A stretch of DNA of 64,000 nt from a virus, in IMG/VR virus record IMGVR_UViG_3300009527_000006, positions 28,026-92,025 of that record. One strand, given 5' to 3'. The notes beneath the pieces were generated by a model. The model was not told where the DNA came from. It saw only the letters and a list, made by a program, of their open reading frames with translations, and made no database searches. Positions 6,531 to 38,968 of the stretch are shown here, in pieces; within the stretch, counting starts at the first letter, position 1, and each line of letters opens with the position of its first letter. Position numbers and translations under genes: made by a program.

Positions 6531-6845
6531 ATGCAAAAACTTCCAACAGATTACTCTAAATTATTTGATATTCATACTGATTCAAACGGATTAGGATTTT
6601 TGAATTTATATGATTCTATAATAATAGGTGATAATATTAATCCTGATTTTTACTCCGATTATTATTTTTCTGATGGTGATGATTTCTATTCTCTTGCTAA
6701 TAAATTCTACGAAAATCATAGATTGTGGTGGATAATTCTTCTAGTGAATAGAATAGACAATCCTTTTGAATTTACAGGTGGACTTATTAAAATTCCTAAC
6801 CAATCTCTCATAAACATCATATTAGATGCCTTAAATAATAAATAA
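6531..6845 (+). CDS. Baseplate wedge protein, T4 gp53-like
   Basis: 104 residues. The core 'DGDDFYSLANKFYENHRLWWIILLVNRI' followed by 'NPFEF...IKIPNQSLI' is the LysM-like pattern of the gp53 family of baseplate wedge proteins: a structured loop, a Trp-rich helix 'WWIILLVN', then 'P-x-x-L/I-x-IP'. T4 gp53 is longer (about 196 residues), so only the LysM-like half is present. The stop overlaps the ATG of the next gene by one base. Confidence 0.7.
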   Translation: MQKLPTDYSKLFDIHTDSNGLGFLNLYDSIIIGDNINPDFYSDYYFSDGDDFYSLANKFYENHRLWWIILLVNRIDNPFEFTGGLIKIPNQSLINIILDALNNK

Positions 6846-8395
6846 TGTCAGATTTTCCATATAATTTTAATAGAACTGATTACATTTTTTCAATAAAACT
6901 ACTCAATGGAACGCATGAAGTTGAGCTGAAACCCGGAGTATGGGACTATCTAACATTACATGAAGATATTTTTCGTTGGTGGACAGTAGGTTCTATAGAA
7001 ATAAATTCATCCAATGAATCTTTAGAAAGAGGTTCAGATTATTTTGGCGTAGTTGGCATTGATGAGAAACAGGTAAATTATAAATTTAGAAATGATGGAA
7101 GAGACACTATTTTTATAAAAATACGGCCCAAAGATGAAAATTTATCAATTTCAGATGCTTCTTTTGATGAAAAAAGATGGCATATAGAATTAGATTGCGT
7201 AATATATCAAGTTGAGGATTTGGCTCATAGTTCTTTAGGCGACAAGAGAAAAAAATTATTCTTCCATGAAAAAACTTATCAGTTGATGCTAGAAAAAAAT
7301 ACAACTTTTTCGACATCTACAGTAGGCGAAAATGCTAAAAAGGAAAAGATATACAAACTCACTAATGAAGAAAGAAGTCTTCCTTCTGGAGAGGCTATTA
7401 AAGAACTGCTCAAAAATGACCCAGACTTTTCTAAACATGCCGAAAATACAGATAATACAGAATTATGGGACTTAGGTAGTAAGGATAACAAGATATTTTA
7501 TAATTCGCCTAGCAATTATAAATTTATAGATGACCTATATTATCTTTTAGAAAATCACATTTCTTCTGAAGAGAACAATTACATGCCCTGTTTGCTGAAG
7601 TTTGAACGAAATGGTGAAAACAAACCTAAACAATTTTCACTAATATCATTCAAAAAATTATTTGAAAAAGCTGGAAAATCGGTTCCCGGAGAATATCAAT
7701 TAGAACACATATTTTTAGAAGAAAATTCAGAAAATCATAATAAAGATCAAATCTTAATTAAAAAGGCACCTTTGAATAAAGATAGTTCTGTGAATGGAGA
7801 ATTAAAAGCAACGCACTTCACTGATGCACCTCGTTATCAATTAATTGATATGAGCGGAATGGACTATTCTACAAAATTGTTCAATAGAAATGTAGTGGCA
7901 TATAACAGTAAAGATGGGCAATGGAATATAGAAATGGAGGAAAATAAAGCAGAAAAATTCAAAGACTTTTTCAAAAACGCCATTTCTCAGAATGTGATGA
8001 CAAATCTTAAAGAAGATCGGTTGCCTATAACACGTTTCTTAAAAGACGGCTACAATACTGAAGACGTATATAGTATTCATCCAAGTGATAAATTGCGTTT
8101 AGCCGACGGAAGAAATGCTATTATTAAAAATTATCTCTTCCAAAATTTAGCAATAAGTTTAGATTTAAGAGGTCTTACACAAAGACAGCCCGGAAGATTT
8201 TTTGGATTATCTAAATCTACCGAAAATACTCAAGAACATGATAATAAACTCGAAGGTCAATACTTAACAGTAAACGTCATTCACCTTTTTAGCACGTCAT
8301 CTCATTCTTATTCCAATAAAATAATAGGAATAAAAACGCACACGTATCAAGAAAAATTTGCTCTTGTGGATGATGATGTAATAACGACTTCTTAA
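6845..8395 (+). CDS. Baseplate hub protein, possibly gp27-like
   Basis: 516 residues. The N-terminal domain ('DYIFSIKLLNG...', 'YLTLHEDIFRWWTVGSIEI', 'RDTIFIKIRP') is beta-rich and has the pattern of gp27-type hub torus proteins, where a strand 'L-x-I-x-E-D-I' precedes a Gly turn. T4 gp27 joins the tail tube to the gp5 spike. The gene lies upstream of the gp5-like OB-fold gene, which supports this role. The middle (150-250) is charged and variable. The call is an inference from fold pattern and position. Confidence 0.45.
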   Translation: MSDFPYNFNRTDYIFSIKLLNGTHEVELKPGVWDYLTLHEDIFRWWTVGSIEINSSNESLERGSDYFGVVGIDEKQVNYKFRNDGRDTIFIKIRPKDENLSISDASFDEKRWHIELDCVIYQVEDLAHSSLGDKRKKLFFHEKTYQLMLEKNTTFSTSTVGENAKKEKIYKLTNEERSLPSGEAIKELLKNDPDFSKHAENTDNTELWDLGSKDNKIFYNSPSNYKFIDDLYYLLENHISSEENNYMPCLLKFERNGENKPKQFSLISFKKLFEKAGKSVPGEYQLEHIFLEENSENHNKDQILIKKAPLNKDSSVNGELKATHFTDAPRYQLIDMSGMDYSTKLFNRNVVAYNSKDGQWNIEMEENKAEKFKDFFKNAISQNVMTNLKEDRLPITRFLKDGYNTEDVYSIHPSDKLRLADGRNAIIKNYLFQNLAISLDLRGLTQRQPGRFFGLSKSTENTQEHDNKLEGQYLTVNVIHLFSTSSHSYSNKIIGIKTHTYQEKFALVDDDVITTS

Positions 8396-9383: not shown

Positions 9384-11021
9384 ATGGATTATAATAGAAA
9401 TTATCGCGGAATCATTGTGCAAAATGATGATCCTGAAGAAATGGGACGTGTCAAAGTTTTCGTTCCATCGGTAAACATGACTTTATATGAAAATTGGAAC
9501 AAAGAAAAGAAGGATAAAAAATTTACCAAATTTGGTGCAAATCTAAACGAAGAAGGAGACGGAATAACACCAGAAATTATGTCAAAGTTGGCAGATTCTC
9601 TTCCTTGGGCAATAGTTCAACAACCGATATTTGGAGGAGGTAATGCAGTTAATTTCCATAGAGATATTGATTATTCTGAAAAAAGCAATGATTCGGATAA
9701 TTCTATTCAGCACACTTTCACAAATAAAGAACTTCCTCCAAACAATAATACTGATAAACCTTCTTTAGAAGATAGATTAGCACATGAAAATGCCATTCCA
9801 TCAGAAAATTCTTCAGAAAAATCCGAAGATTCATCAAATGATTGGATAAAAAACATAGTTTCATCTGATGAAGCTACTAAAACGAGTAATAATGCTGCGG
9901 CAGAAGAAGAGGCAGAAACCTCTAATGTCGGAGGTATTACTATAACTCATATTTCAAAAAATATTCAAAATTTGAGAGGCCGAAAGTTTTTCTCAACTTC
10001 TAGTATAGAAACAGGAAACCAAAAATTCAACCAATACTATGATATTACCAACAATAGAATGAGAAATTCTTATATTGGCATTGATGGTAATATAGTAAAT
10101 GTTCCTCCTCTTTTGACATATTCAAATCCTAATCAAAGTAATGTACCAGACTTCACAGAGTTTGTTAGAATATCCCCTCAAGGAGTAGATCGTTATAAAA
10201 TAAACTCAGAGCTGCTCCTAATGAATAATGGTAAGATTGTGGCAAAAGACGAATTAGATGCTACTGGCAAAAAAAGAAGTAATAGCTTTTCTATAAATGT
10301 AGAGGACATAGTTGAAATAAATGTAGTCCCCACAAATAGTCTGCCTATAAATTTAATCAATGGCACGTTTAATTTTATAGCAAATTTAATACAGCCCGCA
10401 TTAGTTCCAATCACTCCATCTAAAAATCCTGTATTGCCGCCTTTTCCTGTGCCGTTCCCTATGCACAATGCGGGCGGTGGAGGTGCCGATATGAACACAC
10501 TCACATCTTCAGACCTACTTCCCACAAATGCCTTGAAAAACAGCCTCTCTGGAGGAAGTAACCCAAATTCAGTATCACGTCAAAATCAAGGAACCGAACC
10601 AGACAAACAGACCGATCCTAATAAAACTAAACATCCTAATACTAATCATCCAGATAAGAATAAACATCCATTGCGTTCAAGCACACAAGGAAATAAAGTT
10701 AAAGGAATGGTCAGTATTCCTGCGGTAGGAACAAATGTAAATGTATTTTTTGAACAGGGAAATATTAACTATCCTATAGTAACAGGCTACTATTTCACAA
10801 AAGAAGATTTAAGAGGTATTCATGATTCCAGCACTGAAAAAGAGAGAGAAAACAGTATTAGTGAAAAAGGAATGTTTGATAAAATAGTAGAAGCAGCGAC
10901 AGAGGCAAATACTGATATAGCGCATAGTATTACTACTAAATTATCAAAATTGATTTATGGAGATTGGACAAAACCATTTACAGAAGAACAATTAAAATCA
11001 TTTACACAGAAAGAGCCTTAA
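9384..11021 (+). CDS. Baseplate spike/hub OB-fold protein, T4 gp5-like
   Basis: 545 residues. The N-terminus 'YRGIIVQNDDPEEMGRVKVFVPSV' region followed by 'LPWAIV' is the signature of the gp5/gpV OB domain that plugs the hub. A second piece of the same fold appears near 435-475 ('KGMVSIPAVGTNVNVFFEQG...YPIVTGYYF'), so the OB domain is split by a long Asn/Ser/Pro-rich insertion of about 390 residues. The lysozyme domain that follows the OB fold in T4 gp5 is absent, and no repeat beta-helix is visible; the next plus-strand gene may supply the spike shaft. The start follows TTAAATAA. Confidence 0.7.
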   Translation: MDYNRNYRGIIVQNDDPEEMGRVKVFVPSVNMTLYENWNKEKKDKKFTKFGANLNEEGDGITPEIMSKLADSLPWAIVQQPIFGGGNAVNFHRDIDYSEKSNDSDNSIQHTFTNKELPPNNNTDKPSLEDRLAHENAIPSENSSEKSEDSSNDWIKNIVSSDEATKTSNNAAAEEEAETSNVGGITITHISKNIQNLRGRKFFSTSSIETGNQKFNQYYDITNNRMRNSYIGIDGNIVNVPPLLTYSNPNQSNVPDFTEFVRISPQGVDRYKINSELLLMNNGKIVAKDELDATGKKRSNSFSINVEDIVEINVVPTNSLPINLINGTFNFIANLIQPALVPITPSKNPVLPPFPVPFPMHNAGGGGADMNTLTSSDLLPTNALKNSLSGGSNPNSVSRQNQGTEPDKQTDPNKTKHPNTNHPDKNKHPLRSSTQGNKVKGMVSIPAVGTNVNVFFEQGNINYPIVTGYYFTKEDLRGIHDSSTEKERENSISEKGMFDKIVEAATEANTDIAHSITTKLSKLIYGDWTKPFTEEQLKSFTQKEP

Positions 11022-16800: not shown

Positions 16801-17754
16801 TTAGATATTAACATCGTCATCATCATCATCATCCAAAATAAAGTCATTAAGACCATCGTCATCACCATCATCATTATCAACAACTCTATTCTGTGTTTGA
16901 GAGCGAGAATTTGTCGAGCTATTAACAGATTCATTGGCAATAGGACCATCCTCCCCAAACCAATACTGGTCAATGAGAGATTTGAGTTCGTCTTCAGACT
17001 TTACCGCAGGAACTAATTCCAAAAGATTGTGAACTGAATTTTCAATCCTCTCGTAATCAGAAGGTGACAAATTATCAACTGCTTTACTGTCAGCAAATTT
17101 TGAAGTAGAATAATTATTCCAATCAGCCTTTGTAGTAACACGGACAATCAGCGACCTTCCTTTAGGTGAAAGATCAAATGCCTTAATTCCTACATCATCT
17201 CCACCTAAAACTTCTTCATCAATAAGTTTCGCTAAATCACTCTTAATTTCACCAGTTTTCTTGTCTATACCAGCAGAATATTTAAGGACAACTACTGTTC
17301 CTATTTTTTGTTGTGCATCAGGATCATCGCCTTCCACTTTGTGCAAGAAGGCATTTACCAATTCATGACGCTGTGGAATCAATTTGTAACTACGCTTCAT
17401 AGCATCTTCATCACCACTCTTTTTGGCTTCACTAAAAAGCTTCCATTGTAGTTTGTTGATGTAATCATTTTTTGCTTGAGTAGGATCTGCATCTGATAGA
17501 GATCTTCCTAGATAAATGTATTCAGAAGGAGTTGTCAACGTCTCAAACCCAATATCTTTATAGTTTACAAAAGTTTGATCATTTCCATCTGAATCTGTGG
17601 AACGCAAAAGTCTTACATAGTATTTGCAATTTTTCTTGAATTTCAAGATTCTTGGATCAGAATTTCCAGACCCTCCACTTTTTTCCTTTTTAAGCTTTTC
17701 TGCTTTTGAATTTCTAATTTTTTCTAATGTTTCTTCTAATGTTGGTTTTCTCAT
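16801..17754 (-). CDS. 32: Single-stranded DNA-binding protein, T4 gp32-like
   Basis: 317 residues (T4 gp32 is 301). A basic N-terminal segment with 'LEKIRNSKAEKLKKEK' corresponds to the cooperativity region. The OB-fold core runs roughly 40-250 ('KNCKYYVRLLRS', 'GTVVVLKYSAGIDKKTGE', 'KGRSLIVRVTTKADWNNY'), and the last 40 residues are an extreme acidic tail (runs of Asp), as in gp32, where it contacts other replication proteins. The Cys/His zinc ligands of T4 gp32 are absent. Its own terminator lies just downstream, as expected for a highly expressed protein. Confidence 0.85.
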   Translation of the reverse strand: MRKPTLEETLEKIRNSKAEKLKKEKSGGSGNSDPRILKFKKNCKYYVRLLRSTDSDGNDQTFVNYKDIGFETLTTPSEYIYLGRSLSDADPTQAKNDYINKLQWKLFSEAKKSGDEDAMKRSYKLIPQRHELVNAFLHKVEGDDPDAQQKIGTVVVLKYSAGIDKKTGEIKSDLAKLIDEEVLGGDDVGIKAFDLSPKGRSLIVRVTTKADWNNYSTSKFADSKAVDNLSPSDYERIENSVHNLLELVPAVKSEDELKSLIDQYWFGEDGPIANESVNSSTNSRSQTQNRVVDNDDGDDDGLNDFILDDDDDDDVNI

Positions 17755-18973: not shown

Positions 18974-19062
18974 GGCGAACAAAACGGATGCAGACAACGC
19001 TCTATAAGTTGTTTGTCACATTCATAGTCTTTTATTCGCGTGTCTGATCCGAAGCGTTCGGG
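18974..19062 (+). repeat. attC site 1
   Basis: R'' GGCGAAC (18974-18980), L'' CGGATGCAGAC (18985-18995), L' GTCTGATCCG (19042-19051), R' GTTCGGG (19056-19062). L'' pairs with L' except for one extra G. A further AACGC/GCG pairing extends the stem toward the loop. The R'' box predicts that the cassette it came with began TTCGCC; that left end is not visible, so the original first cassette is deleted or displaced. Confidence 0.9.
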
Positions 19063-19088
19063 CAATACGCATCCACACAAAATCACGC

Positions 19089-19529
19089 ATGTATAATAGA
19101 CCGTCTAATTCTGAAGTTGCGGAAATTACTGGATACAATCTTCCTATAGAAGAAATCTCAGAATTTCCCACAGCTAAACAGCAACAAGAAGGAGGTTATA
19201 TTTTGAAGTATATTGGCCGCATCTCAGATACTTGTGATACCTTCTTGAAAACTGCACATGGTAAGGTAGTTGCTATAATATTGCTTATCCATGGAATCAT
19301 CGGATTTGCTAGAGATGCATTTGATGGTGCAACATACATCTATAATGCATCTGCTCCTATGCTTGAAAGGATTGAGACTTTTGTATTTTCTCATAAGAAC
19401 CAAGAAGTCTCTCCCGAATACCTAGTATTGATCCCAAAAGAAACGCACCTGACACTGCCCGTAAAAGATTGGGCTGATTTTCCGGCAGGAACCCAATTTG
19501 CGCCAGCCAGTAGCATAGATTACACATAG
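19089..19529 (+). CDS. Cassette C1 forward ORF, single membrane segment
   Basis: 146 residues, starting 27 bases after attC1, the usual position of an integron cassette gene. It has a hydrophilic N-terminus, a predicted transmembrane helix near residues 58-75 ('VVAIILLIHGIIGFA'), and a C-terminal domain with 'SPEYLVLIPKETHLTLPVKDW'. No family is recognised and no Shine-Dalgarno is present. A reverse ORF (19357-19608) overlaps its 3' half; both could be real. Confidence 0.5.
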   Translation: MYNRPSNSEVAEITGYNLPIEEISEFPTAKQQQEGGYILKYIGRISDTCDTFLKTAHGKVVAIILLIHGIIGFARDAFDGATYIYNASAPMLERIETFVFSHKNQEVSPEYLVLIPKETHLTLPVKDWADFPAGTQFAPASSIDYT

Positions 19530-19608
19530 CCAACGATCCAAAATATATAAATGCAAATATTTCACAACAAACCCATACTTTATTCAAATAATTATATTTA
19601 TTAGACAT
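19357..19608 (-). CDS. Cassette C1 reverse ORF, hydrophobic protein
   Basis: 83 residues with a hydrophobic stretch (about 12-40, 'CCEIFAFIYFGSLAMCNLCYWL') and a second near 52-62. It starts 6 bases after an exact TATAAATA box and 37 bases from attC2. Reverse ORFs in the other cassettes start at the same distance from their attC sites. The overlap with the forward ORF (173 bases) makes it uncertain; promoter and spacing are the arguments for it. Confidence 0.4.
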   Translation of the reverse strand: MSNKYNYLNKVWVCCEIFAFIYFGSLAMCNLCYWLAQIGFLPENQPNLLRAVSGAFLLGSILGIRERLLGSYEKIQKSQSFQA

Positions 19609-19614
19609 TTTACC

Positions 19615-19622
19615 TATTTATA
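19615..19622 (-). promoter_or_regulatory. Late promoter box TATAAATA inside cassette C1
   Basis: Minus-strand TATAAATA-GGTAAA-ATG. It is identical to the phage late box at 14647 and 61913 and lies inside a gene cassette, directed away from attC2 into the cassette. Confidence 0.6.
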
Positions 19623-19644
19623 AAGACTTTAGACTAAAACAAGA

Positions 19645-19734
19645 CCCGAACAAAGAAACTGGAGACAACAGCTCAGCATAGTTATTCTCCTATATTAGTT
19701 CTGTGTTCGCTGTGTCTCAGTTTAGACGTTCGCC
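19645..19734 (+). repeat. attC site 2
   Basis: R'' CCCGAAC (19645-19651), L'' AAACTGGAGAC (19656-19666), L' GTCTCAGTTT (19714-19723), R' GTTCGCC (19728-19734). The stem has the same geometry as attC1 but different bases on both sides (AAACT/AGTTT for CGGAT/ATCCG; GAGAC/GTCTC for CAGAC/GTCTG), again with one extra G. R'' complements R' of attC1 (GTTCGGG). Confidence 0.9.
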
Positions 19735-19758
19735 TAACAACACACAGCCTCTACTACA

Positions 19759-20031
19759 ATGTATAAAACTCAGCCTAAATATCGGGCCATCATTCGTTTC
19801 TCCTTGGATAAGGATGAGAGTTCAAAGTTTCGCAACTCTGTTATTAGAAAACTTAGAAAAGCTAAATTCACCAACACAAATAAGACTGGTTCTTGGGAGA
19901 CTCCATCCGCAGATTTATCTATTATTCAGTCATTAGTCTGCACCGTTATGAACGAACTAGGTAAAGTAACGAATGACGACGGAAAGCCCGTAACATTGGA
20001 CCATATGTGGATGTGCATAGATAAAGTTTAA
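19759..20031 (+). CDS. Cassette C2 forward ORF
   Basis: 90 residues, starting 24 bases after attC2. Basic N-terminal half with 'RAIIRFSLDKDESSKFRNSVIRKLR' (ferredoxin-like beta-alpha character), then 'LSIIQSLVCTVMNEL' and 'DHMWMCIDKV'. No family is recognised. Its stop overlaps by 4 bases the stop of the convergent reverse ORF. No Shine-Dalgarno. Confidence 0.6.
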   Translation: MYKTQPKYRAIIRFSLDKDESSKFRNSVIRKLRKAKFTNTNKTGSWETPSADLSIIQSLVCTVMNELGKVTNDDGKPVTLDHMWMCIDKV

Positions 20032-20198
20032 TCTTCTTCGTTCCACCTAGGGTCATCATCTGACCATTCATTCCATCCAGATTCGATTTCGTCTGAGTCT
20101 GAATTGATAACTATTTTTGTTTTAGATTCAGTATGACACCCACAGTTGCCACATACGCCGCTAATAACGACTTCTATAGGTTGAGAATTATTTTTCAT
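20028..20198 (-). CDS. Cassette C2 reverse ORF, small acidic CxxCxC protein
   Basis: 56 residues: 'MKNNSQPIEVVISGVCGNCGCH', then an acidic Trp-rich tail ('SGWNEWSDDDPRWNEED'). The CGNCGCH cluster could bind a metal. It starts 7 bases after AATAAATA (20206-20213) and 39 bases from attC3. It is convergent with the forward ORF and shares 4 bases at the stops. Too small for family assignment. Confidence 0.5.
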   Translation of the reverse strand: MKNNSQPIEVVISGVCGNCGCHTESKTKIVINSDSDEIESGWNEWSDDDPRWNEED

Positions 20199-20205
20199 AA
20201 TCAGC

Positions 20206-20213
20206 TATTTATT
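20206..20213 (-). promoter_or_regulatory. Late-promoter-like box AATAAATA inside cassette C2
   Basis: Minus-strand AATAAATAGCTGATT-ATG. It shares the string AAATAGCT with the box at 26511-26518 near attC7, suggesting a common cassette promoter. Confidence 0.5.
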
Positions 20214-20236
20214 GGCAGCTCTTGCTATAAACAAGA

Positions 20237-20325
20237 GGCGAACAAAACGGATGCAGACAACGCTCTATAAGTTTTATGTCACATTCAGAGTTTAGTATTC
20301 GCGTGTCTGATCCGAGACGTTCGTC
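20237..20325 (+). repeat. attC site 3
   Basis: R'' GGCGAAC (20237-20243), L'' CGGATGCAGAC (20248-20258), L' GTCTGATCCG (20305-20314), R' GTTCGTC (20319-20325). Nearly identical to attC1 and attC6. R'' complements R' of attC2 (GTTCGCC). Confidence 0.9.
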
Positions 20326-20879
20326 TTATGAAATGCCACCCAGTGAGTCTGCGCTTTCTTGCCGCTACGGTGGCCGTAGAGCGGGCGTTCTGGCGTGAGT
20401 GCCAGCACTTCGCGGAGCGGGATTTCAGCCTCGCACCATTTGAAGATCATCGTTCCATTCACTTTCAGGACACGGAAGCATTCAGCGAATCCCGCCCGCA
20501 GGTCGTCGCGCCATGTCGCATCCAGAAGCCCGAAGTCGAAGGCGATGCGTCCCGTTGCCCCGGCTCCTTTATGGAAGTGCGGCGGATCGAATACCACATG
20601 CCAGAACGACTCATCAGGGAACGGCATGTTTCGGAAGTCCACCACCATATCAGGCGCGACGGTTTTCGGGGTGCGCCCGATGGTTCCCGGCGTTCCCACG
20701 TCGATGATTCGCGTGCCTTGGCGTTTGTCCACATACAGGGCGCGGTCATCCTGTTTATCGAACCAGAACATTCTGGTTGAGCAGCACGCATCCAATACCG
20801 GAGGCAAAGACGAACAAGTCGCTGCATGCAACCCGCTTTCTGCGTGCTGTTGGCGCGTTAATGTGAAGAGGTCATCCAT
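20292..20879 (-). CDS. Cassette C3: GC-rich SAM-dependent methyltransferase
   Basis: Class I methyltransferase-like protein, about 195 residues from ATG 20879 (206 from ATG 20912). Motifs: 'VVDFRNMPFPDESFWHVVFDPPHF', where DPPH is the catalytic-type motif seen in DNA/RNA adenine methyltransferases, and 'FRVLKVNGTMIFKW' for strand 5. Base composition is far more GC-rich than the rest of the window, so it is a recent acquisition. It runs opposite to the attC direction. Both possible starts lie inside attC4, and its last nine or so residues and stop come from attC3, so both protein ends depend on neighbouring sites. The target is unknown. Confidence 0.8.
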   Translation of the reverse strand: MDDLFTLTRQQHAESGLHAATCSSLPPVLDACCSTRMFWFDKQDDRALYVDKRQGTRIIDVGTPGTIGRTPKTVAPDMVVDFRNMPFPDESFWHVVFDPPHFHKGAGATGRIAFDFGLLDATWRDDLRAGFAECFRVLKVNGTMIFKWCEAEIPLREVLALTPERPLYGHRSGKKAQTHWVAFHKTNVSDQTREY

Positions 20880-20928
20880 AGGTGTATCGGTGTATTGTGT
20901 CAGCGGGTGCATGAGCTAGGCGTTCGCC
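20809..20928 (+). repeat. attC site 4 (different sequence family)
   Basis: R'' GACGAAC (20809-20815), L'' GCTGCATGCAACCCGCT (20821-20837), L' AGCGGGTGCATGAGC (20902-20916), R' GTTCGCC (20922-20928). L'' and L' pair perfectly except for two extra bases in L'' (G and A), the classic extrahelical bases of attC. Its stem sequence is unrelated to the other sites and is GC-rich like its cassette. R'' complements R' of attC3 (GTTCGTC), the only site with that R'. Confidence 0.9.
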
Positions 20929-20937
20929 TAAAAACCA

Positions 20938-21192
20938 ATGCACTCATCACAAACTAATTCGCAGATGATAATCGCGCACATGCTAGCCAATGATAACGGA
21001 GCCATTTTTCATTTTGAGGACTATAGATTCAATGTTCGTCCTGAAGATCGAGTCACTTCCAGCAATTGGCCTAGTGGTATAACATTGCACATTAGACTTT
21101 CTAGCACAGGGCTGAGCGCAGCTTCTTACGAGAACGAGACAGTGCTCGGTGAATATGTGGATGAAAGAGGAACTCCCATTTTGCCTTATTAG
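20938..21192 (+). CDS. Cassette C4 forward ORF
   Basis: 84 residues, starting 9 bases after attC4. It has 'MIIAHMLANDNGAIFHFEDYRFNVRPEDR' and a beta-rich end 'ITLHIRLSSTGLSAASYENETVLGEYVDERG', ending 'PILPY'. No family is recognised. Its stop overlaps by 4 bases the stop of a convergent reverse ORF. A/C-rich leader without Shine-Dalgarno. Confidence 0.6.
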   Translation: MHSSQTNSQMIIAHMLANDNGAIFHFEDYRFNVRPEDRVTSSNWPSGITLHIRLSSTGLSAASYENETVLGEYVDERGTPILPY

Positions 21193-21428
21193 GAATTATT
21201 ACTTGGATCATTCGGAATTGCATGGCCGAATCTCAGCACTTCACCATTGTCATATAGATAGGCCATTCCACGAATTCCAAAAGGACCATTATACTTACCT
21301 TTCTCATTCTGTATTTTTATGTTCTCGTGCATAGTCCATCTTCGCCAGATTCCAATAGCTTCATCATACGGAAGTGCCTCTGGATCTGGGTATTTGGTTA
21401 AGTCTATTGGGTTGTCTAAATTTAACAT
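21189..21428 (-). CDS. Cassette C4 reverse ORF
   Basis: 79 residues from the ATG at 21428. N-terminal 'LDNPIDLTKYPDPEALPYDEAIGIWRRW', then a beta stretch 'FGIRGMAYLYDNGEVLRFGHA'. No family is recognised. A variant box AATAAGTA (21438-21445) lies 9 bases upstream and attC5 about 40 bases upstream, the same layout as C5. Confidence 0.55.
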   Translation of the reverse strand: MLNLDNPIDLTKYPDPEALPYDEAIGIWRRWTMHENIKIQNEKGKYNGPFGIRGMAYLYDNGEVLRFGHAIPNDPSNNS

Positions 21429-21437
21429 ATTCAAAGC

Positions 21438-21445
21438 TACTTATT
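21438..21445 (-). promoter_or_regulatory. Variant late box AATAAGTA inside cassette C4
   Basis: AATAAGTA on the minus strand, 9 bases before the reverse ORF start. It differs by one base from the AATAAATA of C2 and has the same variant position and spacing as the box in C5. Confidence 0.35.
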
Positions 21446-21468
21446 CGTAGTCAAATGCTAAAACAAGA

Positions 21469-21558
21469 GGCGAACAAAGAAACTGGAGACAACAGCTCAG
21501 CATAGCTATTCTCCTATATTAGTTCTGTGTTCGCTGTGTCTCAGTTTAGATGTTCGCC
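21469..21558 (+). repeat. attC site 5
   Basis: R'' GGCGAAC (21469-21475), L'' AAACTGGAGAC (21480-21490), L' GTCTCAGTTT (21538-21547), R' GTTCGCC (21552-21558). The body is nearly identical to attC2, but the R'' differs in the way needed to complement R' of attC4 (GTTCGCC). Confidence 0.9.
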
Positions 21559-21573
21559 CAACCTCACCACACC

Positions 21574-21759
21574 ATGTCTATTATAAAGAAACCTAGTTCG
21601 TGCGTATTTTGCAGATCTGCACTGATTAAAGGTCCGATTAAGAGAGATCGTAATTTAAATGAAACTATTGAAATGAAGAGTGTCGTTTATATTTGTGAGC
21701 AATGTAATTTTGTTCACGAATTTAATATTCATACTACTAAAAAATCTAAGATGAAGTAG
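21574..21759 (+). CDS. Cassette C5 forward ORF, small zinc-ribbon protein
   Basis: 61 residues from the ATG at 21574, 15 bases after attC5; an in-frame ATG at 21550 lies inside attC5 and is unlikely. Two Cys pairs, 'CVFC' near 11-14 and 'CEQC' near 43-46, are separated by about 30 residues, the spacing of a zinc ribbon. The rest is basic. It may bind nucleic acid. A truncated relative with a CxFC motif lies in C7 (26556-26633). Confidence 0.6.
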   Translation: MSIIKKPSSCVFCRSALIKGPIKRDRNLNETIEMKSVVYICEQCNFVHEFNIHTTKKSKMK

Positions 21760-21910
21760 TAGACACGAAACATGCAAGCCCATCACATTGAGCATTCCAC
21801 ATTTCATCCAGAATTCTATCATTATTTTCCTGTTCTTCTTTGGAAAGTCTCATCCAATGACACTGCTCCACTTCTAACCATTCACGTATCTTTGCTTTTA
21901 TCCATTGCAT
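21746..21910 (-). CDS. Cassette C5 reverse ORF
   Basis: 54 residues: 'MQWIKAKIREWLEVEQCHW', then an acidic helix 'RLSKEEQENNDRILDEMW' and 'NAQCDGLACFVS'. Three Cys, one His. It overlaps the forward ORF 3' end by 14 bases in convergent orientation. CATAAGTA (21920-21927) is 9 bases upstream and attC6 40 bases upstream. Confidence 0.5.
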   Translation of the reverse strand: MQWIKAKIREWLEVEQCHWMRLSKEEQENNDRILDEMWNAQCDGLACFVSTTSS

Positions 21911-21919
21911 AGTAGTCAA

Positions 21920-21927
21920 TACTTATG
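21920..21927 (-). promoter_or_regulatory. Variant late box CATAAGTA inside cassette C5
   Basis: CATAAGTA 9 bases upstream of the minus-strand ATG at 21910. Same variant and spacing as in C4. Confidence 0.35.
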
Positions 21928-21949
21928 AAGCTAATAAACAGAAACAAGA

Positions 21950-22038
21950 GGCGAACAAAACGGATGCAGACAACGCTCTATAAGTTTTATGTCACATTCA
22001 TAATTTTATATTCGCGTGTCTGATCCGAGACGTTCGGG
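21950..22038 (+). repeat. attC site 6
   Basis: R'' GGCGAAC (21950-21956), L'' CGGATGCAGAC (21961-21971), L' GTCTGATCCG (22018-22027), R' GTTCGGG (22032-22038). Nearly identical to attC1 and attC3. R'' complements R' of attC5. Confidence 0.9.
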
Positions 22039-22061
22039 TAAAACAGAACATAAACACCACA

Positions 22062-22232
22062 ATGAATGAATCTACGTTAGTTGATTGCGCTAAATGGTTA
22101 TATGAAAAGCAGCAAGAGAACCTAAAAGCCGGAAAGAATCTACTTTGGCAGCCACATATAATAACCGTTCTTTTAAACTTACAAAAATCTAAAGTCATAC
22201 TTTTAAGATATAAACTCTCGATTTTTTGTTAA
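22062..22232 (+). pseudogene. Cassette C6 forward ORF, probably truncated by the IS insertion
   Basis: 56-residue reading frame starting 23 bases after attC6 ('MNESTLVDCAKWLYEKQQE...'). Its last ten or so codons are antisense to the end of tnpB, so the natural 3' part was probably removed or displaced when the IS607-like element inserted near 22150-22195. Confidence 0.4.
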
Positions 22233-23421
22233 ATTCCTGCTTCACAGACGGGCTAACCAAAGTCGTTTCCGACAATGGTGAACTCCCATCTCCACAGGCT
22301 TGAATTCCCGAAGAACTTTCGGTATAAATTTGTTTCAGATTCAAACTCGCATTTAAATCTCTATCTATTTTCATATCACACATTTTACATTCAAATACTC
22401 GGTCTGTCAACTTCAAATCTGAATTTTTCCATCCGCAACATGAACATAATTTAGAACTGGCGTAGAAAGTATCTGCGAAGACAACTTTTCTATTATTCCA
22501 TTTCGCTTTATATTCAATTTGGCGACGAAATTCATAAAGTCCTACGTCACTGATAGCCTGAGCCAAACAGTGATTTTTCAACATATTGCTTACTTTCAAA
22601 TCTTCCAACACAATTACATTGTTTTTCTGTATTATGTTAGAAGTGATTCTATGTAAGCAATCTTTACGAATATTTGATATGTGATAATGTAATTTTGCTA
22701 ACTTTTGTTTTGCTTTTCCATAATTTTTACTTCCTTTTTTCTTTCTTGATAATTGTTTTTGTTTGCGTTTTAGTCTCTTGAGATTTTTCTTTAATGCTTT
22801 TGGATTTTCATAAGTTGTCCCATCTGAGCAAGTAGCTAAAGTTTTAATACCTAAATCAATTCCTACTACCTCATTCTTGGCGTTAGAATGCTCTCTGTCA
22901 GGTGTCTCTACTTGAACTGATACAAACCACTTACCCGCACGTTTCGAGACTGTAGCAGACAGTATTTTACAATCTGTTGGGATGTAATCTTTCTCGGATA
23001 ATTTGAGTTTGTCGATTCGTGGTAGCTTAATGTAATCAGATTCAACTGAAATCGCGCCGTCTAGTCTGAAGGATTGCTTTTCGTTTTTCTTAGATTTAAA
23101 TTTTGGAAATCCTTTCTTACCTTTAACTTTCTTTTTACAACGAGTGAAGAAATTTTGAAATGCTTTATCACAATCTCTTAACGCATTTTGTGGAGAAGTC
23201 TTGCTTGAATTATACATCCAAGGAACATCTGTCTGTTTTAGCTTGTTTAATTCTCTATGAATCTCAATAGCATTTTGAATTTTCTCTTTCTTATCAAATT
23301 GTTCTTTCTTTTTAGCTAATGCCCAATTATATGCCCATCTAGCGCAACCAATATGCTGTAATAACAAGGTTTGTTGCTTGTTATTTACATCTAGCTGAAC
23401 TTTATAGGCGCGGAGAATCAT
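22195..23421 (-). CDS. tnpB: TnpB, RuvC-like RNA-guided nuclease
   Basis: 408 residues from the ATG overlapping the methyltransferase stop (ATGA). An N-terminal helical and Lys-rich region with 'GCARWAYNWALA' leads to the RuvC-like core: Asp in 'GIDLGIKT' (about 195), Glu in 'VLEDLKVSNM' (about 279), zinc ribbon CSCC...CKMC (about 332-353), last Asp in 'DRDLNAS'. All catalytic residues are present and length is normal, so it looks intact. TnpB proteins cut at a target next to a short motif using an RNA from the element's end; the RNA would map around 22040-22250. Confidence 0.9.
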   Translation of the reverse strand: MILRAYKVQLDVNNKQQTLLLQHIGCARWAYNWALAKKKEQFDKKEKIQNAIEIHRELNKLKQTDVPWMYNSSKTSPQNALRDCDKAFQNFFTRCKKKVKGKKGFPKFKSKKNEKQSFRLDGAISVESDYIKLPRIDKLKLSEKDYIPTDCKILSATVSKRAGKWFVSVQVETPDREHSNAKNEVVGIDLGIKTLATCSDGTTYENPKALKKNLKRLKRKQKQLSRKKKGSKNYGKAKQKLAKLHYHISNIRKDCLHRITSNIIQKNNVIVLEDLKVSNMLKNHCLAQAISDVGLYEFRRQIEYKAKWNNRKVVFADTFYASSKLCSCCGWKNSDLKLTDRVFECKMCDMKIDRDLNASLNLKQIYTESSSGIQACGDGSSPLSETTLVSPSVKQEFNKKSRVYILKV

Positions 23422-24283
23422 TTTAATCTTTCTAAACAAATATCATAATACTCTTTTTCTTTTTCGATGCCGATAAACTGACGATTGAGATTTTTGGCGG
23501 CAACCAGAGTTGTTCCCGAACCAGCAAAAGGATCGAACACCAAATCCTCTTTATTTGAGATAGACTTCACCAAGTCTTCCATCATATTCAACGGTTTTTC
23601 ACATGGATGTTTGTCTTTTCTTTGCGAGACTATTTCATATTCAATTACATCTTCAAATGAAGATAGCGATAACGAATCAAATTTTCGTTTGGATAATTTA
23701 ATACCTAAATCTCCTCTAATTTGGGAAGAAATTTTGGAGATGGAAAGCATCTACCACATTCCCAATTTGATACTTGACCACCATTATTAACGTTTCCATA
23801 AGCACCCAATATTTCAGTAAGCTCTTTTACCGATACCCCCTTAGAAATGCGGGCATTCTTAATGTCATTTGGATAAGAATCTTGTGAAAAATAAATTATT
23901 CTTTCTGATGCTGGATATGGTCGTCTAAGGGAATTTTTATTACACTTATTTTTCCAACCCTCACTCCCCTTATTTGGAAAAGTTTTCTTCCACACAATTT
24001 CAGATTGGAAATTGAAATATTGATTTATCAGGACGGCTAAAAATGGAGCCAATGATGGCTTACAAAAAACGTAACCACTACAAGTATTTTTCATCTTCGG
24101 TTTAAGAATTTTGAAAAAATAATCAAACCATTTTAAAAATTCAGTATCGTTATCATGTTCATTGTCCCAAGTGTGCTTTTTAACATTGTGATAAGGTGGA
24201 TCGGTGACAAGGATATCCACGCTTCCATCTGGAATGTCCTTCATCAATTCTAAACAGTCGCCATGCCAAATTTCTTGTTTCAT
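23418..24283 (-). pseudogene. DNA (amino) methyltransferase with single-base frameshift
   Basis: The N-terminal piece (24283 to 23705) has 'DILVTDPPYHNVKKHTWDNE' (catalytic DPPY) and 'FLKWFDYFFKILKP'. The C-terminal piece (to 23418) has 'DPFAGSGTTLVAAKNLNRQFIGIE' (SAM site). DPPY before FxGxG fits a beta-class N4/N6 enzyme. The target region carries a small XRE-like helix-turn-helix (about 158-192). The pieces overlap out of frame near 23705-23716: adding one T to GAGATTTAGG restores 'LEEILGIKLSKRK'. So either a one-base deletion or a programmed shift. The start overlaps the endonuclease stop and has AAGGAGG upstream. Confidence 0.75.
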
Positions 24284-25305
24284 TCCATCGCCTCCTTTTC
24301 TTTCTTTTTACGATTCTGTGAGCTAATCATACCCAATCCTTCTCTAATTAGATACAGGCGACCAGTCGAAGTTTTTAACTCTTTTGCTACGCCTCTCCAA
24401 GTTTGATGTTTATCAAACAAATCGTGCAGTTGTTTTACTGTAATATCTGAACGCTTTTTCCGTAAAATTTGCTGAGATAGACACTCTAAATATAATTCAT
24501 ACTTTCTATCCAAATACACTTTAGCGTTTGAGTATATTGGTCTTAATATGTTTTGAACTAACTCGACCCCCGCCGAAGATATGCAGCAAGTTTCTGAATC
24601 TCCCTCTCCATATTTTGATAGGATTTTTGCGCGACATTTGCTATACGAAAGAATATACTCTTGAAATTTCTCAATAACAAGCCTATTTCCAACAAGATTA
24701 ATTGTCCACACCCAAGATTTTTTATATTTGGGTTCAAGCGTTTTAGAAATGCAGCCATCACCGTCAAATATGCCTCGCCAAAAATGACAGTGTAAATCCT
24801 TTGGAATTAAATTTAACGGAGGAATAAAGCTAAAAGATTTTCTCGGTAAAATACCAAATTTAGCCAAATCATTGCATATTTTTCTGTTACCAATTACAAT
24901 TCGACACGACTCAAATATTTTACTATTATCACCCCCTTCAAAAGAGGGCGAACTTCTACATATTTTAATTGGATGCGCCGAACGGCAAAATTTCTTAAAT
25001 TTTTCTAAGTGCAACAAATCTGACTTTTTTAAACCTATATTCAATCCTCCATAATCGGTTACGTTGCCGTCGGCGGCAATGAATCCAAGCCAATAAGCCT
25101 TATCTTCTGTGTCAATTTTTTCAAAAATAGAATCGTCAATAGTATATTTAGAGTTATTTTTAATTTTGATACCCCTTTTTTTGGCTTCTCTGGTGCAGCA
25201 TTCGCTACTTAATCCGTAAACAGCCGCCGCCCTTTGTGCAGAATCCCCGTTTACATATAGATTAATCATTCCGTCCTTTTCTTCTTGTGTAATAGTGCGT
25301 CTCAT
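24280..25305 (-). CDS. LAGLIDADG-type homing endonuclease
   Basis: 341 residues from ATG 25305 (343 from 25311). An N-terminal helix-turn-helix-like part (about 1-45, 'DGMINLYVNGDSAQRAAAVYGLS') precedes two LAGLIDADG motifs, 'YWLGFIAADGNV' (about 70) and 'HFWRGIFDGDGCI' (about 172), so it acts as a monomer cutting a long asymmetric site. A C-terminal helix-turn-helix ('TVKQLHDLFDKHQTWRGVAKEL') follows. No intein splice residues flank it, so it is free-standing. Both acidic catalytic residues are present. It may help the element spread or may be a passenger. Confidence 0.8.
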   Translation of the reverse strand: MRRTITQEEKDGMINLYVNGDSAQRAAAVYGLSSECCTREAKKRGIKIKNNSKYTIDDSIFEKIDTEDKAYWLGFIAADGNVTDYGGLNIGLKKSDLLHLEKFKKFCRSAHPIKICRSSPSFEGGDNSKIFESCRIVIGNRKICNDLAKFGILPRKSFSFIPPLNLIPKDLHCHFWRGIFDGDGCISKTLEPKYKKSWVWTINLVGNRLVIEKFQEYILSYSKCRAKILSKYGEGDSETCCISSAGVELVQNILRPIYSNAKVYLDRKYELYLECLSQQILRKKRSDITVKQLHDLFDKHQTWRGVAKELKTSTGRLYLIREGLGMISSQNRKKKEKEAME

Positions 25306-25327
25306 ATACATATATTTACACTAAAAA

Positions 25328-25888
25328 TCACTCTTTTTCACAAAAATCTGATAAAACTTCATCATCGGGATAGATTTCTGTAGTCACCTCTTCCACCTTT
25401 TCAATTCTAACTCCATAGGAATTAAAATAAGACAAAAGATAATTAAAACAAAATCTTGATAATCTATCTTTATGCTCAATTAAGACTACATCAATTTCTT
25501 TCTTTTCTACTAACTCAAAAAGTTTCTGCAATTTCTTGCGATTGTCGTTCATTCCTGAACCAACTTCATCAAAAACAGCAACAATAGAATAACCACGCTT
25601 CAATGCCTCTGTAGTCATTCTGCCGACTTGTCTTTCTAAATCACCTTTAGTCTTCTGTTCATGTGAACTAACGCGACAATAGATAGCCACACGCTTACCA
25701 TCTGTTACTTTAACAGGTTCTACATAGATTCCCGCCAATTTCTCAATATCGGCTCTGTAATAGCGTCTATGACCACCTTTTGTATGGAATGGCGTTAATT
25801 TGCCTTCTCGCTCCCAATTTCTAAGAGTTTCGTCGGAAACGCCTAAAATGGACGCAGCATCACTAATTGATAGAATCTTTTTATCCAT
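25328..25888 (-). CDS. tnpA: IS607-type serine recombinase (TnpA), C-terminus short
   Basis: 186 residues. A MerR-type helix-turn-helix (1-60: 'LSISDAASILGVSDETLRNWEREGKL', 'GGHRRYYRADIEKL') is followed by a small serine recombinase domain with catalytic Ser in 'IYCRVSSHEQ', Arg in 'DLERQVGRM', and 'HKDRLSRF'. The family usually ends with a helix of about 30 more residues ('ELVEDLLSIITSF'-type), which is absent: the protein stops at 'DDEVLSDFCEKE', next to the start of the endonuclease gene. It may be defective, or shortened when that gene was inserted. Confidence 0.85.
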   Translation of the reverse strand: MDKKILSISDAASILGVSDETLRNWEREGKLTPFHTKGGHRRYYRADIEKLAGIYVEPVKVTDGKRVAIYCRVSSHEQKTKGDLERQVGRMTTEALKRGYSIVAVFDEVGSGMNDNRKKLQKLFELVEKKEIDVVLIEHKDRLSRFCFNYLLSYFNSYGVRIEKVEEVTTEIYPDDEVLSDFCEKE

Positions 25889-26057
25889 TTTTGTCTATCA
25901 ATCCTTTCTGTTGAAACAACCTAAACCATTCGTCATAGATTCGTTGAAATTCCTCTACGGTTGGAACTTCATCTAATTCAAACGGAATATCATGGATAAC
26001 TCCATCATCGGTTTCAAATTCTGTTGCTGTAACTCTTGTAATCATTTTTGGCTTCAT
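25881..26057 (-). CDS. Small acidic protein upstream of tnpA
   Basis: 58 residues ('MKPKMITRVTATEF', then 'DGVIHDIPFELDEVPTVEEFQRIYDEWF'). Acidic, no family recognised. Its stop overlaps the tnpA start by 8 bases, so it is translated with the recombinase. A TGTAAATATAT motif lies just before its ATG. Confidence 0.55.
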   Translation of the reverse strand: MKPKMITRVTATEFETDDGVIHDIPFELDEVPTVEEFQRIYDEWFRLFQQKGLIDKNG

Positions 26058-26248
26058 ATATATTTACACTAAAAGTTTAGATTTTCTACGAAAAAAGTGA
26101 AAATATTTTAACTTTCTTTAGATATTTTAGATTATCGGGCAACTGTTGTCAACCCTCGGAAAGTTGTGGTTACTATTTGTTTCCTGTTTTGCGATATTAT
26201 CCACTGCTCTGATCACCGAGTTTATAAAACAAGATGGGTATAAGTTGT

Positions 26249-26503
26249 TTAAGTCCAGCCTAAATAATGAACACACAAAAGCATCGGAACCACCCCCATC
26301 ACAAACAACAAAACACATAAAATAATCAACCATCCTAATGCCATGAAGAGGCATTCTACAAAAGCCTTAAACTCACCATCAAACCCGAACAAAACGGATG
26401 CAGGCAACACCTCTGGGCTGTCTGTCGTATTATTCATAGTATTTTCGTTCGGTGTGCCTGATCCGAGACGTTCGCCTTCTGCTAATTTAGTTTGTTTTTT
26501 CAT
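26249..26503 (-). CDS. Cassette C6/C7 reverse ORF, membrane protein reading through attC7
   Basis: 84 residues from ATG 26503. The first 30 residues are encoded by the start of cassette C7 and by attC7; the C-terminal half is strongly hydrophobic ('FMALGWLIILCVLLFVMGVVPMLLCV'), one or two transmembrane helices. CATAAATA (26511-26518) lies 7 bases upstream. The N-terminal part would be swapped if cassette order changed. An internal ATG at about 26440 could give a form starting 'MNNTTDSPEV'. Confidence 0.45.
   Translation of the reverse strand: MKKQTKLAEGERLGSGTPNENTMNNTTDSPEVLPASVLFGFDGEFKAFVECLFMALGWLIILCVLLFVMGVVPMLLCVHYLGWT
26384..26476 (+). repeat. attC site 7
   Basis: R'' CCCGAAC (26384-26390), L'' CGGATGCAGGC (26395-26405), L' GCCTGATCCG (26456-26465), R' GTTCGCC (26470-26476). 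Compared with attC1 one base pair has changed on both sides (CAGAC/GTCTG to CAGGC/GCCTG). R'' complements R' of attC6 (GTTCGGG) across the 4.4-kb cassette containing the IS. Confidence 0.9.
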
Positions 26504-26510
26504 CAAAAGC

Positions 26511-26518
26511 TATTTATG
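26511..26518 (-). promoter_or_regulatory. Late-promoter-like box CATAAATA at the start of cassette C7
   Basis: Minus-strand CATAAATAGCTTTTG-ATG. It shares AAATAGCT with the C2 box. Confidence 0.5.
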
Positions 26519-26555
26519 AAATAATATTATTAATTCAACCAGCATAATAATAACC

Positions 26556-26633
26556 ATGTTTAACTACCTAAAGACTAGCTTGTGTCAATTTTGTAAAGGA
26601 ACCACTGACCCATCCACAAAGAAAGAGATTTAA
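26556..26633 (+). pseudogene. Cassette C7 short ORF, remnant of a CxFC protein
   Basis: 25 codons with 'TSLCQFCKGTTDPSTKKEI', similar in pattern to the first half of the C5 zinc-ribbon protein ('SCVFCRSALIKGPIKR'). It ends before a second Cys pair. I read it as a broken paralog in a decayed cassette. Confidence 0.3.
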
Positions 26634-26674
26634 ACTCTTCATTTGAGATAAAGTGTGTTATTTATATTTTTGAG

Positions 26675-26763
26675 GCTCTATAAGTTTTATGTCACATTCA
26701 TAGCTTAGAACTCACTATGTCTCAGCGTAAACTTACCATTCATGTCTGCGCTAGGCGTTTGCC
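26675..26763 (+). repeat. Degenerate attC remnant (site 8)
   Basis: 26675-26703 repeats the variable-loop string of attC3/attC6 (GCTCTATAAGTTTTATG and on), and GTTTGCC at 26757-26763 stands where R' is expected, but R'' and a pairing L''/L' are missing. It marks the decayed right end of the array. Confidence 0.5.
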
Positions 26764-27109: not shown

Positions 27110-28465
27110 TTAGGTTGTCATAAATTCTTCCATCGAGAATTTCTTTTTCAATATACTTGACCTAGAATCTTCATATGATTGCTCAGTATCTTCTTCTTCA
27201 AAAAATCTCAGTGTGCTATAATCAATATTCAAGTATCCCCCGCCATTGAGAGCACCGTCTCTAGATTTCTTACCCTTAACTAATACTCTGTTAAGTTCAC
27301 GGTCTTCATCTGTTTGTGACATGACTGTAAGATTATCAAAATCGCCTAGCATTGAATATGAACCAGCCATATTATCCAAGTCAGCAGAATTATTTCGATG
27401 TCCGTCTCTATTGAGTTGTGCAGGAGTTAATAGAGGGCATTCAAAAATATAACTGAGCCCTCTTACTTCTTGAGTAATATACTGAAATTCGTCGTGCTTA
27501 GGAACATTGCTTTTTGTAGATTTACATAGAGTAATATAATCCAGTATTATCACCGATGGTTTGAAATTTTTCTTTCTTTCTAATTTTTTAATAAAGGATT
27601 TAATGTTAGTAGGAGTCACTGATTTAGCCGCGAACTCTTTGATTACTAATCTAGAAGTTTTATCAGAAATAAAATCATCCACATACTCTCTATACTCTAA
27701 TAGCCTGTCTCCTATTTCTCCTAGAGCAATACCCGTTAACATACCAGAAATTCTACGAGCATATCTTTTTTCACTCATTTCTAAAGTTATAATTACTACA
27801 TCCTCATTCTGTCTGAGAATGTTAGTTCCAATGTTTCCCACCAAAAGTGATTTTCCGACATTAGTGGAGCCAGCTACGCCATATATTGCTCGCCCTTCTT
27901 TAAACATTCCTCCACCAAATGCTTCATCCACTATCTTATATCCGGTGCTTAGAAAAACATCCTTTTCAGTTAAAATAGATTCTACCCTACTTCTTTCGGC
28001 AAAATATTCCAACCCTAGATTATCTACTAATGAAATATTAGATATAGTTTCTTGTTCAGTTTGAAAATCATCTAAATCTATTTCTTGTTTTTCTGTCTTA
28101 TCATCAATAGCCTTTTCTAGAAGATTTTCTGTTTTTCTCTGCTTTATAAAATACTCTGCATTAGCAAGCAATTCGTCTTCATTACATTCATCCGCAATAT
28201 TTTCATTTTTTATAAGATCAATCGCTTTTTTAAGATGTTCTTTATTTTTAGTAGTATTAAACCGGGTTTTTAATTCTGTAAAATTAGGAACTGCGGACCT
28301 TTCTACATAAAAATCTTTAATAGTCTGTGCTATTGCAGAGAAGTTTTCGTTTTTGAAAATATCTGCTCCAATATATTCTATGCAAGAACCTAGTAATATT
28401 CCATCTTTTTTGAGAAGATTCTTCATAAGAATCTTCTCAAAAAAATCTAAATCAATTTTGCTCAT
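27110..28465 (-). CDS. 41: Replicative DNA helicase, T4 gp41-like (DnaB family)
   Basis: 451 residues. The N-terminal helical domain (1-140) includes 'SCIEYIGADIFKNENFSAI' typical of DnaB-family proteins. The RecA-like core has Walker A 'GVAGSTNVGKSLLVGN' (about 205), 'VVIITLEMSEKRYARRISGM', Walker B 'PSVIILDYITLC' and 'LLTPAQLNRDG' (Gln sensor). It unwinds the fork 5' to 3' and loads the primase. It follows uvsX as in T4, where uvsX-40-41 are adjacent. Confidence 0.9.
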   Translation of the reverse strand: MSKIDLDFFEKILMKNLLKKDGILLGSCIEYIGADIFKNENFSAIAQTIKDFYVERSAVPNFTELKTRFNTTKNKEHLKKAIDLIKNENIADECNEDELLANAEYFIKQRKTENLLEKAIDDKTEKQEIDLDDFQTEQETISNISLVDNLGLEYFAERSRVESILTEKDVFLSTGYKIVDEAFGGGMFKEGRAIYGVAGSTNVGKSLLVGNIGTNILRQNEDVVIITLEMSEKRYARRISGMLTGIALGEIGDRLLEYREYVDDFISDKTSRLVIKEFAAKSVTPTNIKSFIKKLERKKNFKPSVIILDYITLCKSTKSNVPKHDEFQYITQEVRGLSYIFECPLLTPAQLNRDGHRNNSADLDNMAGSYSMLGDFDNLTVMSQTDEDRELNRVLVKGKKSRDGALNGGGYLNIDYSTLRFFEEEDTEQSYEDSRSSILKKKFSMEEFMTT

Positions 28466-37955: not shown

Positions 37956-38026
37956 AGTCTATTATAAGAATCGAACTTATATAGGAAGTTTTGCAGACTT
38001 CTGCCTAACCACTCGGCCAAATAGAC
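37956..38026 (-). tRNA. tRNA-Cys (GCA)
   Basis: Acceptor GTCTATT/AATAGAC, anticodon arm GAAGT-CTGCAAA-ACTTC, T arm TATAAG-TTCGATT-CTTATA. A well-formed cloverleaf. Confidence 0.9.
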
Positions 38027-38035
38027 GATTAAAAA

Positions 38036-38110
38036 ATTCTCTAGTCCAGAGTCGCACTGGAATTTTTTGATTCACAATCAAAGGTTTTTACTATTAAACT
38101 ACGTAGAGAA
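38036..38110 (-). tRNA. tRNA-His (GTG)
   Basis: Acceptor TTCTCTA/TAGAGAA, anticodon arm TTTGA-TTGTGAA-TCAAA, T arm TCCAG-TGCGACT-CTGGA. The T-loop has G at position 55 (TGC instead of TTC). Confidence 0.85.
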
Positions 38111-38117
38111 TAAAAAC

Positions 38118-38186
38118 AGGCAGATTGAGAATCGAACTCAAACTAATCATTTTGGAGACGATTTTGCTACCACTACAACATCTGCC
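38118..38186 (-). tRNA. tRNA-Trp (CCA)
   Basis: Acceptor GGCAGAT/ATCTGCC, anticodon arm ATCGT-CTCCAAA-ATGAT, T arm TTGAG-TTCGATT-CTCAA. Confidence 0.85.
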
Positions 38187-38192
38187 TTTAAA

Positions 38193-38263
38193 CATCGACT
38201 GACAGACTTGAACTGTCACAAACAAAATCAAAATTTGGTATGCTACCATTACATCAAATCGAC
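38193..38263 (-). tRNA. tRNA-Gln (TTG)
   Basis: Acceptor GTCGATT/AGTCGAT (first pair G-T), D stem ATGT/GCAT, anticodon loop TTTTGAT read as anticodon TTG, T arm GACAG-TTCAAGT-CTGTC. The anticodon stem has an outer mismatch. Confidence 0.75.
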
Positions 38264-38280
38264 AGTATTACTTATTAAAC

Positions 38281-38868: not shown

Positions 38869-38968
38869 ATACTATAAACATTATCCACAACACTACTCAA
38901 GTCAAGAAGAAACATCTAAAATTGTGCATGTTTACAGGACAAATCAGAGGCATTAGATGTATAAAACA

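Follow-up and report, generated by a model that had tools for sequence, protein, structure and literature searches.

A Verrucomicrobiota-type integron cassette array without an integrase gene among the replication genes of a T4-like phage record

The window analysed here, a stretch of 64,000 nucleotides, corresponds to bases 28,026-92,025 of the 92,025-base IMG/VR virus record IMGVR_UViG_3300009527_000006, and carries at 18974-26763 a series of integron-type recombination sites (attC) and gene cassettes that a first-pass annotation had taken for an integron array inside a T4-like phage. The array is flanked by genes coding for a gp32-like single-strand DNA binding protein and a gp41-like replicative helicase (Table 1). 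Matches to T4-type PHROG families reveal gp17-, gp18-, gp23-, gp32-, gp41-, gp43- and UvsX-like genes in the record, the functions behind them being terminase, tail sheath, major head protein, DNA polymerase, DnaB-type helicase, UvsX and single-strand binding protein. This combination of T4-type replication genes with head and tail genes indicates, on sequence grounds, that the record is a T4-like phage and, together with the match to an attC model described below, supports the first-pass reading. The DNA polymerase is ~31% identical to cultured relatives, for example in phages of Methylophilales and of cyanobacteria.

The seven sites (s1-s7) share a bottom-strand fold in which the outer R stem (GAAC/GTTC) is followed by unpaired spacers, by an inner L stem from which one base bulges out and by a tip that varies, and the AAC...GTT of the R''/R' boxes is kept in all of them (7/7). 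Near-copies are found among s1/s3/s6 and between s2 and s5. In an alignment that also takes in sites of other phages, pairing covers 98% of the cells of the drawn structure and nine pairs show a compensatory change; shifting the pairing partners by 1-3 bases abolished the pairing. The seven sites also ranked top in a structural scan of the window, where the reversed sequence gave none above threshold. A covariance model built from only 17 chromosomal attC sites of Verrucomicrobiota recovered exactly these seven sites on the 92-kb record (E-values from 1.1e-17 to 1e-5), with nothing more at E<=10, and returned no site on 292 kb of other viral contigs. Site s4 was recovered by both of our models, though it was in neither training set, and a decayed eighth site lay below the reach of both. 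The seven attC sites are real and score far above background, and the earlier proposal that they bound six cassettes (C1-C6) and one decayed cassette (C7) is borne out for all seven by the Verrucomicrobiota model.

The cut that integron integrases make in the R' box falls between G and TT (written G/TT below), and the six bases after G belong to the next cassette; in a circular cassette, those six bases should pair with the cassette's own R''. In the window, R'' exactly complements the start of its own cassette in six of six cases (TTCGGG/CCCGAA in C1 and C6, TTCGCC/GGCGAA in C2, C4 and C5, TTCGTC/GACGAA in C3), whereas the R''/R' pairing within the array is perfect at one site of seven. Across twelve phage arrays, the own-start match was observed in 23 of 31 cases versus three perfect in-array pairs out of 43. 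Such an excess of own-start over in-array matches is the mark of cassette exchange at G/TT, and argues against terminators or chance repeats.

Table 1. Features of the array, its flanking genes and the integrase loci of other phages. Positions are those of the window, except in the last row; cassettes are cut at G/TT.
Feature	Coordinates	Strand	Details
attC s1	18974-19062	+	R'' GGCGAAC, R' GTTCGGG; array left end
attC s2	19645-19734	+	R'' CCCGAAC, R' GTTCGCC
attC s3	20237-20325	+	R'' GGCGAAC, R' GTTCGTC
attC s4	20809-20928	+	R'' GACGAAC, R' GTTCGCC; divergent stem, long central spacer (longer tip)
attC s5	21469-21558	+	R'' GGCGAAC, R' GTTCGCC; near-copy of s2
attC s6	21950-22038	+	R'' GGCGAAC, R' GTTCGGG
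attC s7	26384-26476	+	R'' CCCGAAC, R' GTTCGCC
Decayed eighth site	26640-26763	+	type-A central spacer kept; L'/R'-like end GTTTGCC at 26757-26763
C1	19057-19728	+	672 bp; ORF + 19089-19529 (146 aa), overlapping ORF - 19608-19357 (83 aa)
C2	19729-20319	+	591 bp; convergent ORFs + 19759-20031 (90 aa), - 20198-20028 (56 aa)
C3	20320-20922	+	603 bp, 57% GC; minus-strand DNA methyltransferase, PHROG 954
C3 methyltransferase ORF	20912-20292	-	stop codon inside neighbouring s3 site
C4	20923-21552	+	630 bp; convergent ORFs + 20938-21192 (84 aa), - 21428-21189 (79 aa)
C5	21553-22032	+	480 bp; ORF + 21574-21759 (61 aa, two CxxC pairs); convergent minus ORF ~51 aa
C6	22033-26470	+	4438 bp; broken by IS607-like insertion ~22.2-26.06 kb
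IS607-like element in C6	22195-25888	-	Pfam
TnpA (MerR + serine resolvase) of the element	25888-25328	-	Pfam
LAGLIDADG-like ORF of the element	25311-24280	-	Pfam
N6/N4 DNA methyltransferase of the element, two overlapping ORFs	24283-23705, 23750-23418	-	Pfam
TnpB of the element	23439-22195	-	Pfam
Decayed C7	26471-26757	+	by eye, remnant of C5-like ORF
gp32-like single-strand DNA binding protein	16801-17754	-	left of array; PHROG match
gp41-like replicative helicase	27110-28465	-	right of array; PHROG match
IntI loci in phage contigs G606, G607, G608	L224 6535-7563; L222 about 9700-10750; L214

Cuts at G/TT confirmed the sizes previously given for the cassettes (480-672 bp for five, C6 being enlarged by an insertion sequence), C6 owing its length to the IS607-like element inside it. 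A LAGLIDADG-like open reading frame (ORF) and a split methyltransferase sit between TnpA and TnpB of this element. Small ORFs beginning 9-27 bases after an attC had been noted for most cassettes, and this holds for the plus-strand ORFs of C1, C2, C4, C5 and C6, which begin ~9-26 nt past the preceding site and have C/A-rich leaders resembling those after bacterial R' boxes. It does not hold for C3, whose gene lies on the minus strand, and the ORF layout needed completing with minus-strand ORFs in C1, C2, C4 and C5. In each of C2, C4 and C5 the ORF pair is convergent, with a few-base overlap, and one of the heavily overlapping pair in C1 may be spurious. The C3 methyltransferase is of phage type, with relatives ~50% identical in phages and Verrucomicrobiota. 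No homologue of the C2 protein was found in phages or Verrucomicrobiota, and no convincing homologue of the proteins of C1, C4, C5 and C6. The GC content of C3 stands apart from the 36-41% of C1, C2, C4 and C5, as expected if cassettes arrive singly. Elsewhere in the window, nine tRNA genes are clustered at 37956-39819.

The motif ATAARTA is present 6-9 nt upstream of the ATG of the minus-strand ORFs of C1, C2, C4 and C5, and of one at 26503. Outside the array, ~31 instances of TAAATA ending 5-9 nt before the ATG were counted among 103 phage genes, which have few Shine-Dalgarno motifs. This signal, observed over the window (1-64000) and in the contigs L005 and L006, is a possible start signal of a non-Shine-Dalgarno kind; its interpretation as a T4 late promoter was dropped, as the position 5-9 nt before the ATG looks like that of a gene-start signal.

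The same attC family was found in 22 of 289 sampled Verrucomicrobiota genomes versus none of 299 Pseudomonadota, and the sites of the window belong to it. In one Verrucomicrobiota genome (G251), an integron integrase (IntI; TIGR02249, 382 bits) directly adjoins an array of same-type attC sites that reads away from it. The distribution of the family in these two phyla makes Verrucomicrobiota the likely host or gene source. The coding sense of the cassettes differs between the two settings: the longest ORF is in sense in 29 of 31 cassettes from bacterial arrays, versus 11 of 29 in sense and 17 of 29 in antisense in phage arrays (p = 3e-7, with cassettes of one array not fully independent and GC-rich DNA casting shadow ORFs in both sets).

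An exact attC half-site pattern gave no match on viral contigs and a looser one succeeded; pattern and model searches recovered the attC family in many further viral contigs, which form 16 non-redundant groups when the window is included. A pattern of the form GCAGACAACG...GTGTCTG gave mostly chance matches, and L018, L020, two matches in genome contigs, were likewise judged to be due to chance. The terminases of the groups bearing this attC family are of different families. In L006, the terminase large subunit gene (5157-7340) has, by eye, an apparent small intein-like insertion.

Four of these contigs (L011, L012, L014 and L016), which belong to a lineage other than that of the window, are at least 99.5% identical over both flanks and have inserts of 625, 0, 943 and 335 bp, respectively, at one shared point. 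The three inserts sit exactly between G and TT and end in an attC whose R'' matches their own start, so that these contigs represent a natural empty site and three different fillings. L007, L013 and this group share a cassette body of 238 bases at 100% identity, and identity stops at GTTCGGC. Since near-identical phages differ by whole cassettes at a single point, phages of this attC family seem to trade cassettes, beyond mere carriage. The comparison of related phages suggested by the first-pass annotation is therefore available for other members of the attC family, where it reveals gain or loss at G/TT, and not for the locus in the window, for which no close relative was found.

Three phage contigs (G606, G607 and G608), all with the same attC family, contain IntI genes (341-352 bits). 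DnaB is a further product of both G606 and G608, and G608 codes for an SU10-type capsid protein as well. The array of G606 is found upstream of intI and points away from it, which is the standard layout. The phage IntI are 62% identical mutually and 48% identical to the closest of the bacterial IntI sampled; they form a group of their own, apart from these bacterial IntI. Two further loci were noted: an intI-like ORF without its middle in L217 (G014), whose C-terminal tail resembles phage IntI, and an IntI-like protein encoded by L226 4680-5678 (KX853513, Virus Rctr41k), 40% identical to the G606 IntI, with no attC of the window family in the stretch read.

As judged from ORFs at 29 phage loci, the arrays run opposite to the flanking phage transcription in 13 of the 16 groups and in the same direction in none, three groups (L091, L205 and L209) being unclear; L222, ambiguous by ORF lengths, was settled through its plus-strand DnaB, capsid and IntI genes. 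We infer that phage cassettes are selected for being read with the phage operon. Transcription opposing the array may, in addition, make the bottom strand of attC available.

Taken together, these results make it very probable that the segment is an array of cassettes with Verrucomicrobiota-type attC sites in a T4-like replication gene cluster, where single cassettes were joined by an integron integrase at G/TT. With seven attC sites and no integrase match in a possibly incomplete record, it falls among the clusters of attC sites lacking an integrase nearby (CALINs), defined by at least two such sites, rather than among complete integrons, as the record has no recognised intI with attI. Cassettes would come as circular units and be joined one at a time, at the G/TT of the R' box in an attC already present. 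The joining enzyme would be an integron integrase, most likely provided by the host cell under infection, or by a phage in some related cases. Its substrate would be the bottom strand, single and folded, as exposed by phage replication or transcription. We also infer that insertion would occur during infection and that the phage may benefit from it.

Several observations weigh against this interpretation. No cassette start matching s1 was found just upstream of it, and this left end implies that part of the array may have arrived or been lost in another way. No close relative of the phage turned up among phage genomes when the region was compared by megablast, or in scans of viral contigs with the gp41-like helicase and UvsX-like proteins, so that the array lacks an empty-site comparison of its own. 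The earlier statement that the window holds no integrase gene extends to the whole 92-kb record, possibly incomplete, in which neither a tyrosine recombinase nor an IntI was detected (PF00589 and TIGR02249, 0 matches); no attI was recognised in it either, no search having been aimed at attI itself. The bacterial survey of attC types covered two phyla, Verrucomicrobiota and Pseudomonadota. Finally, the R' cores of the window (GTTCGGG, GTTCGCC and GTTCGTC, that is, GTTCGNN) depart from GTTRRRY, which is the textbook R' consensus and not a definition. The cores beside IntI in G251 (GTTCGGC, GTTAGGC and GTTCGCC) show the same departure, indicating that a GTTC core like that of the phage, although not the textbook one, is common in that genome.

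A different origin would be the transfer of the array as one block from a chromosomal integron of the host, by homologous or illegitimate recombination, after which it would have been a passive and decaying passenger. The decayed or truncated ends of the array, the disruption of C6 and the presence of near-copy sites, as within a single host array, are in line with such a transfer. We nevertheless regard it as unlikely, because the cassettes differ in GC content and attC type (C3 and s4 being set apart), all six pairs of R'' and own start are intact, minus-strand ORFs of the cassettes bear the phage's own gene-start signal, and insertion at G/TT is stepwise in related phages. An assembly chimera, with a bacterial integron contig fused into a phage contig, deserves consideration for any metagenome record, as assemblers can be misled by repeats. 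It is highly improbable here: T4-type phage genes lie on both flanks, the cassette bodies other than C3 have 35-41% GC, compared with 32% in the phage and ~60% in most of the bacterial attC sites that were sampled, ATAARTA precedes the minus-strand ORFs of the cassettes as in phage genes, and comparable arrays occur in many independent phage contigs. That the repeats are phage terminators or other structural hairpins is scarcely credible, for although they fold into hairpins and sit between genes, they are homologous to sites that neighbour an IntI gene in a genome of Verrucomicrobiota, their outer boxes pair imperfectly in the array and perfectly within each cassette, and phages are polymorphic for insertions at exactly G/TT.

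Beyond the probable stepwise assembly of this one array by an integron integrase, gain or loss of cassettes and the possession of IntI, both observed in phages other than that of the window, suggest that the phage may be a user of cassettes and not a mere carrier. We tentatively raise the possibility, which we hold to be slightly short of an even chance, that phages of several unrelated lineages, probably infecting Verrucomicrobiota, hold a cassette pool of their own, of which the window array would be one member. This pool would be characterised by small cassettes often coding in antisense, arrays that oppose transcription so that their genes are read with the phage operon, gain and loss at G/TT and, in some cases, a phage branch of IntI. 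Integrons have been studied as bacterial gene-capture devices, and phages were thought to touch them rarely. If unrelated phages share a pool and gain cassettes stepwise, they would actively convey, and also store, cassettes whose functions are unknown. The attC type would moreover provide a clue to the host of otherwise unassignable phages, and it becomes possible to test whether phage DNA that replicates in an infected cell is a substrate of integron integrases.

With the chromosomal integrons of Verrucomicrobiota, as in G251, the array shares the stem and bulged base of the attC sites, their core and the context on their flanks, and the own-start rule followed by most cassettes; it differs in that IntI lies beside the sites in G251 and is lacking in the phage record. 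Carriage by a phage, presented in the first-pass annotation as a departure from the normal location of cassettes, is not unprecedented, since CALINs are an already known kind in phages. They were reported in virulent and temperate phages, including TJE1, P12002L, PH101 and the Myroviridae phage MW202573, and five of six tested phage attC sites recombined with IntI1 (Qi et al., 2023, PMC9892861). These CALINs resemble the present array in their attC-bounded cassettes, the lack of an integrase, the location in a phage and the methyltransferase genes among the cassettes, whereas the window has seven Verrucomicrobiota-type sites with a GTTC core in a T4-like phage; TJE1 was described with three attC sites and with cassettes oriented as in bacteria (PMC9892861). 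Complete integrons are known from the temperate phages Vibrio Va_90-11-286_p16, P1 isolate L-II and Shewanella M16-3 (PMC9892861). G606-G608 likewise combine integron parts, including IntI, with a phage, but the published cases derive from other integrons, the G606 IntI being 37-45% identical to theirs. In the literature searched, which included few subscription journals and preprints, the following appear to be new: the Verrucomicrobiota attC type in phages, in ~16 non-redundant groups; one empty and three filled G/TT sites in near-identical phages; IntI in three phage contigs; arrays that oppose phage transcription; and phage cassettes that frequently code in antisense, unlike bacterial cassettes.

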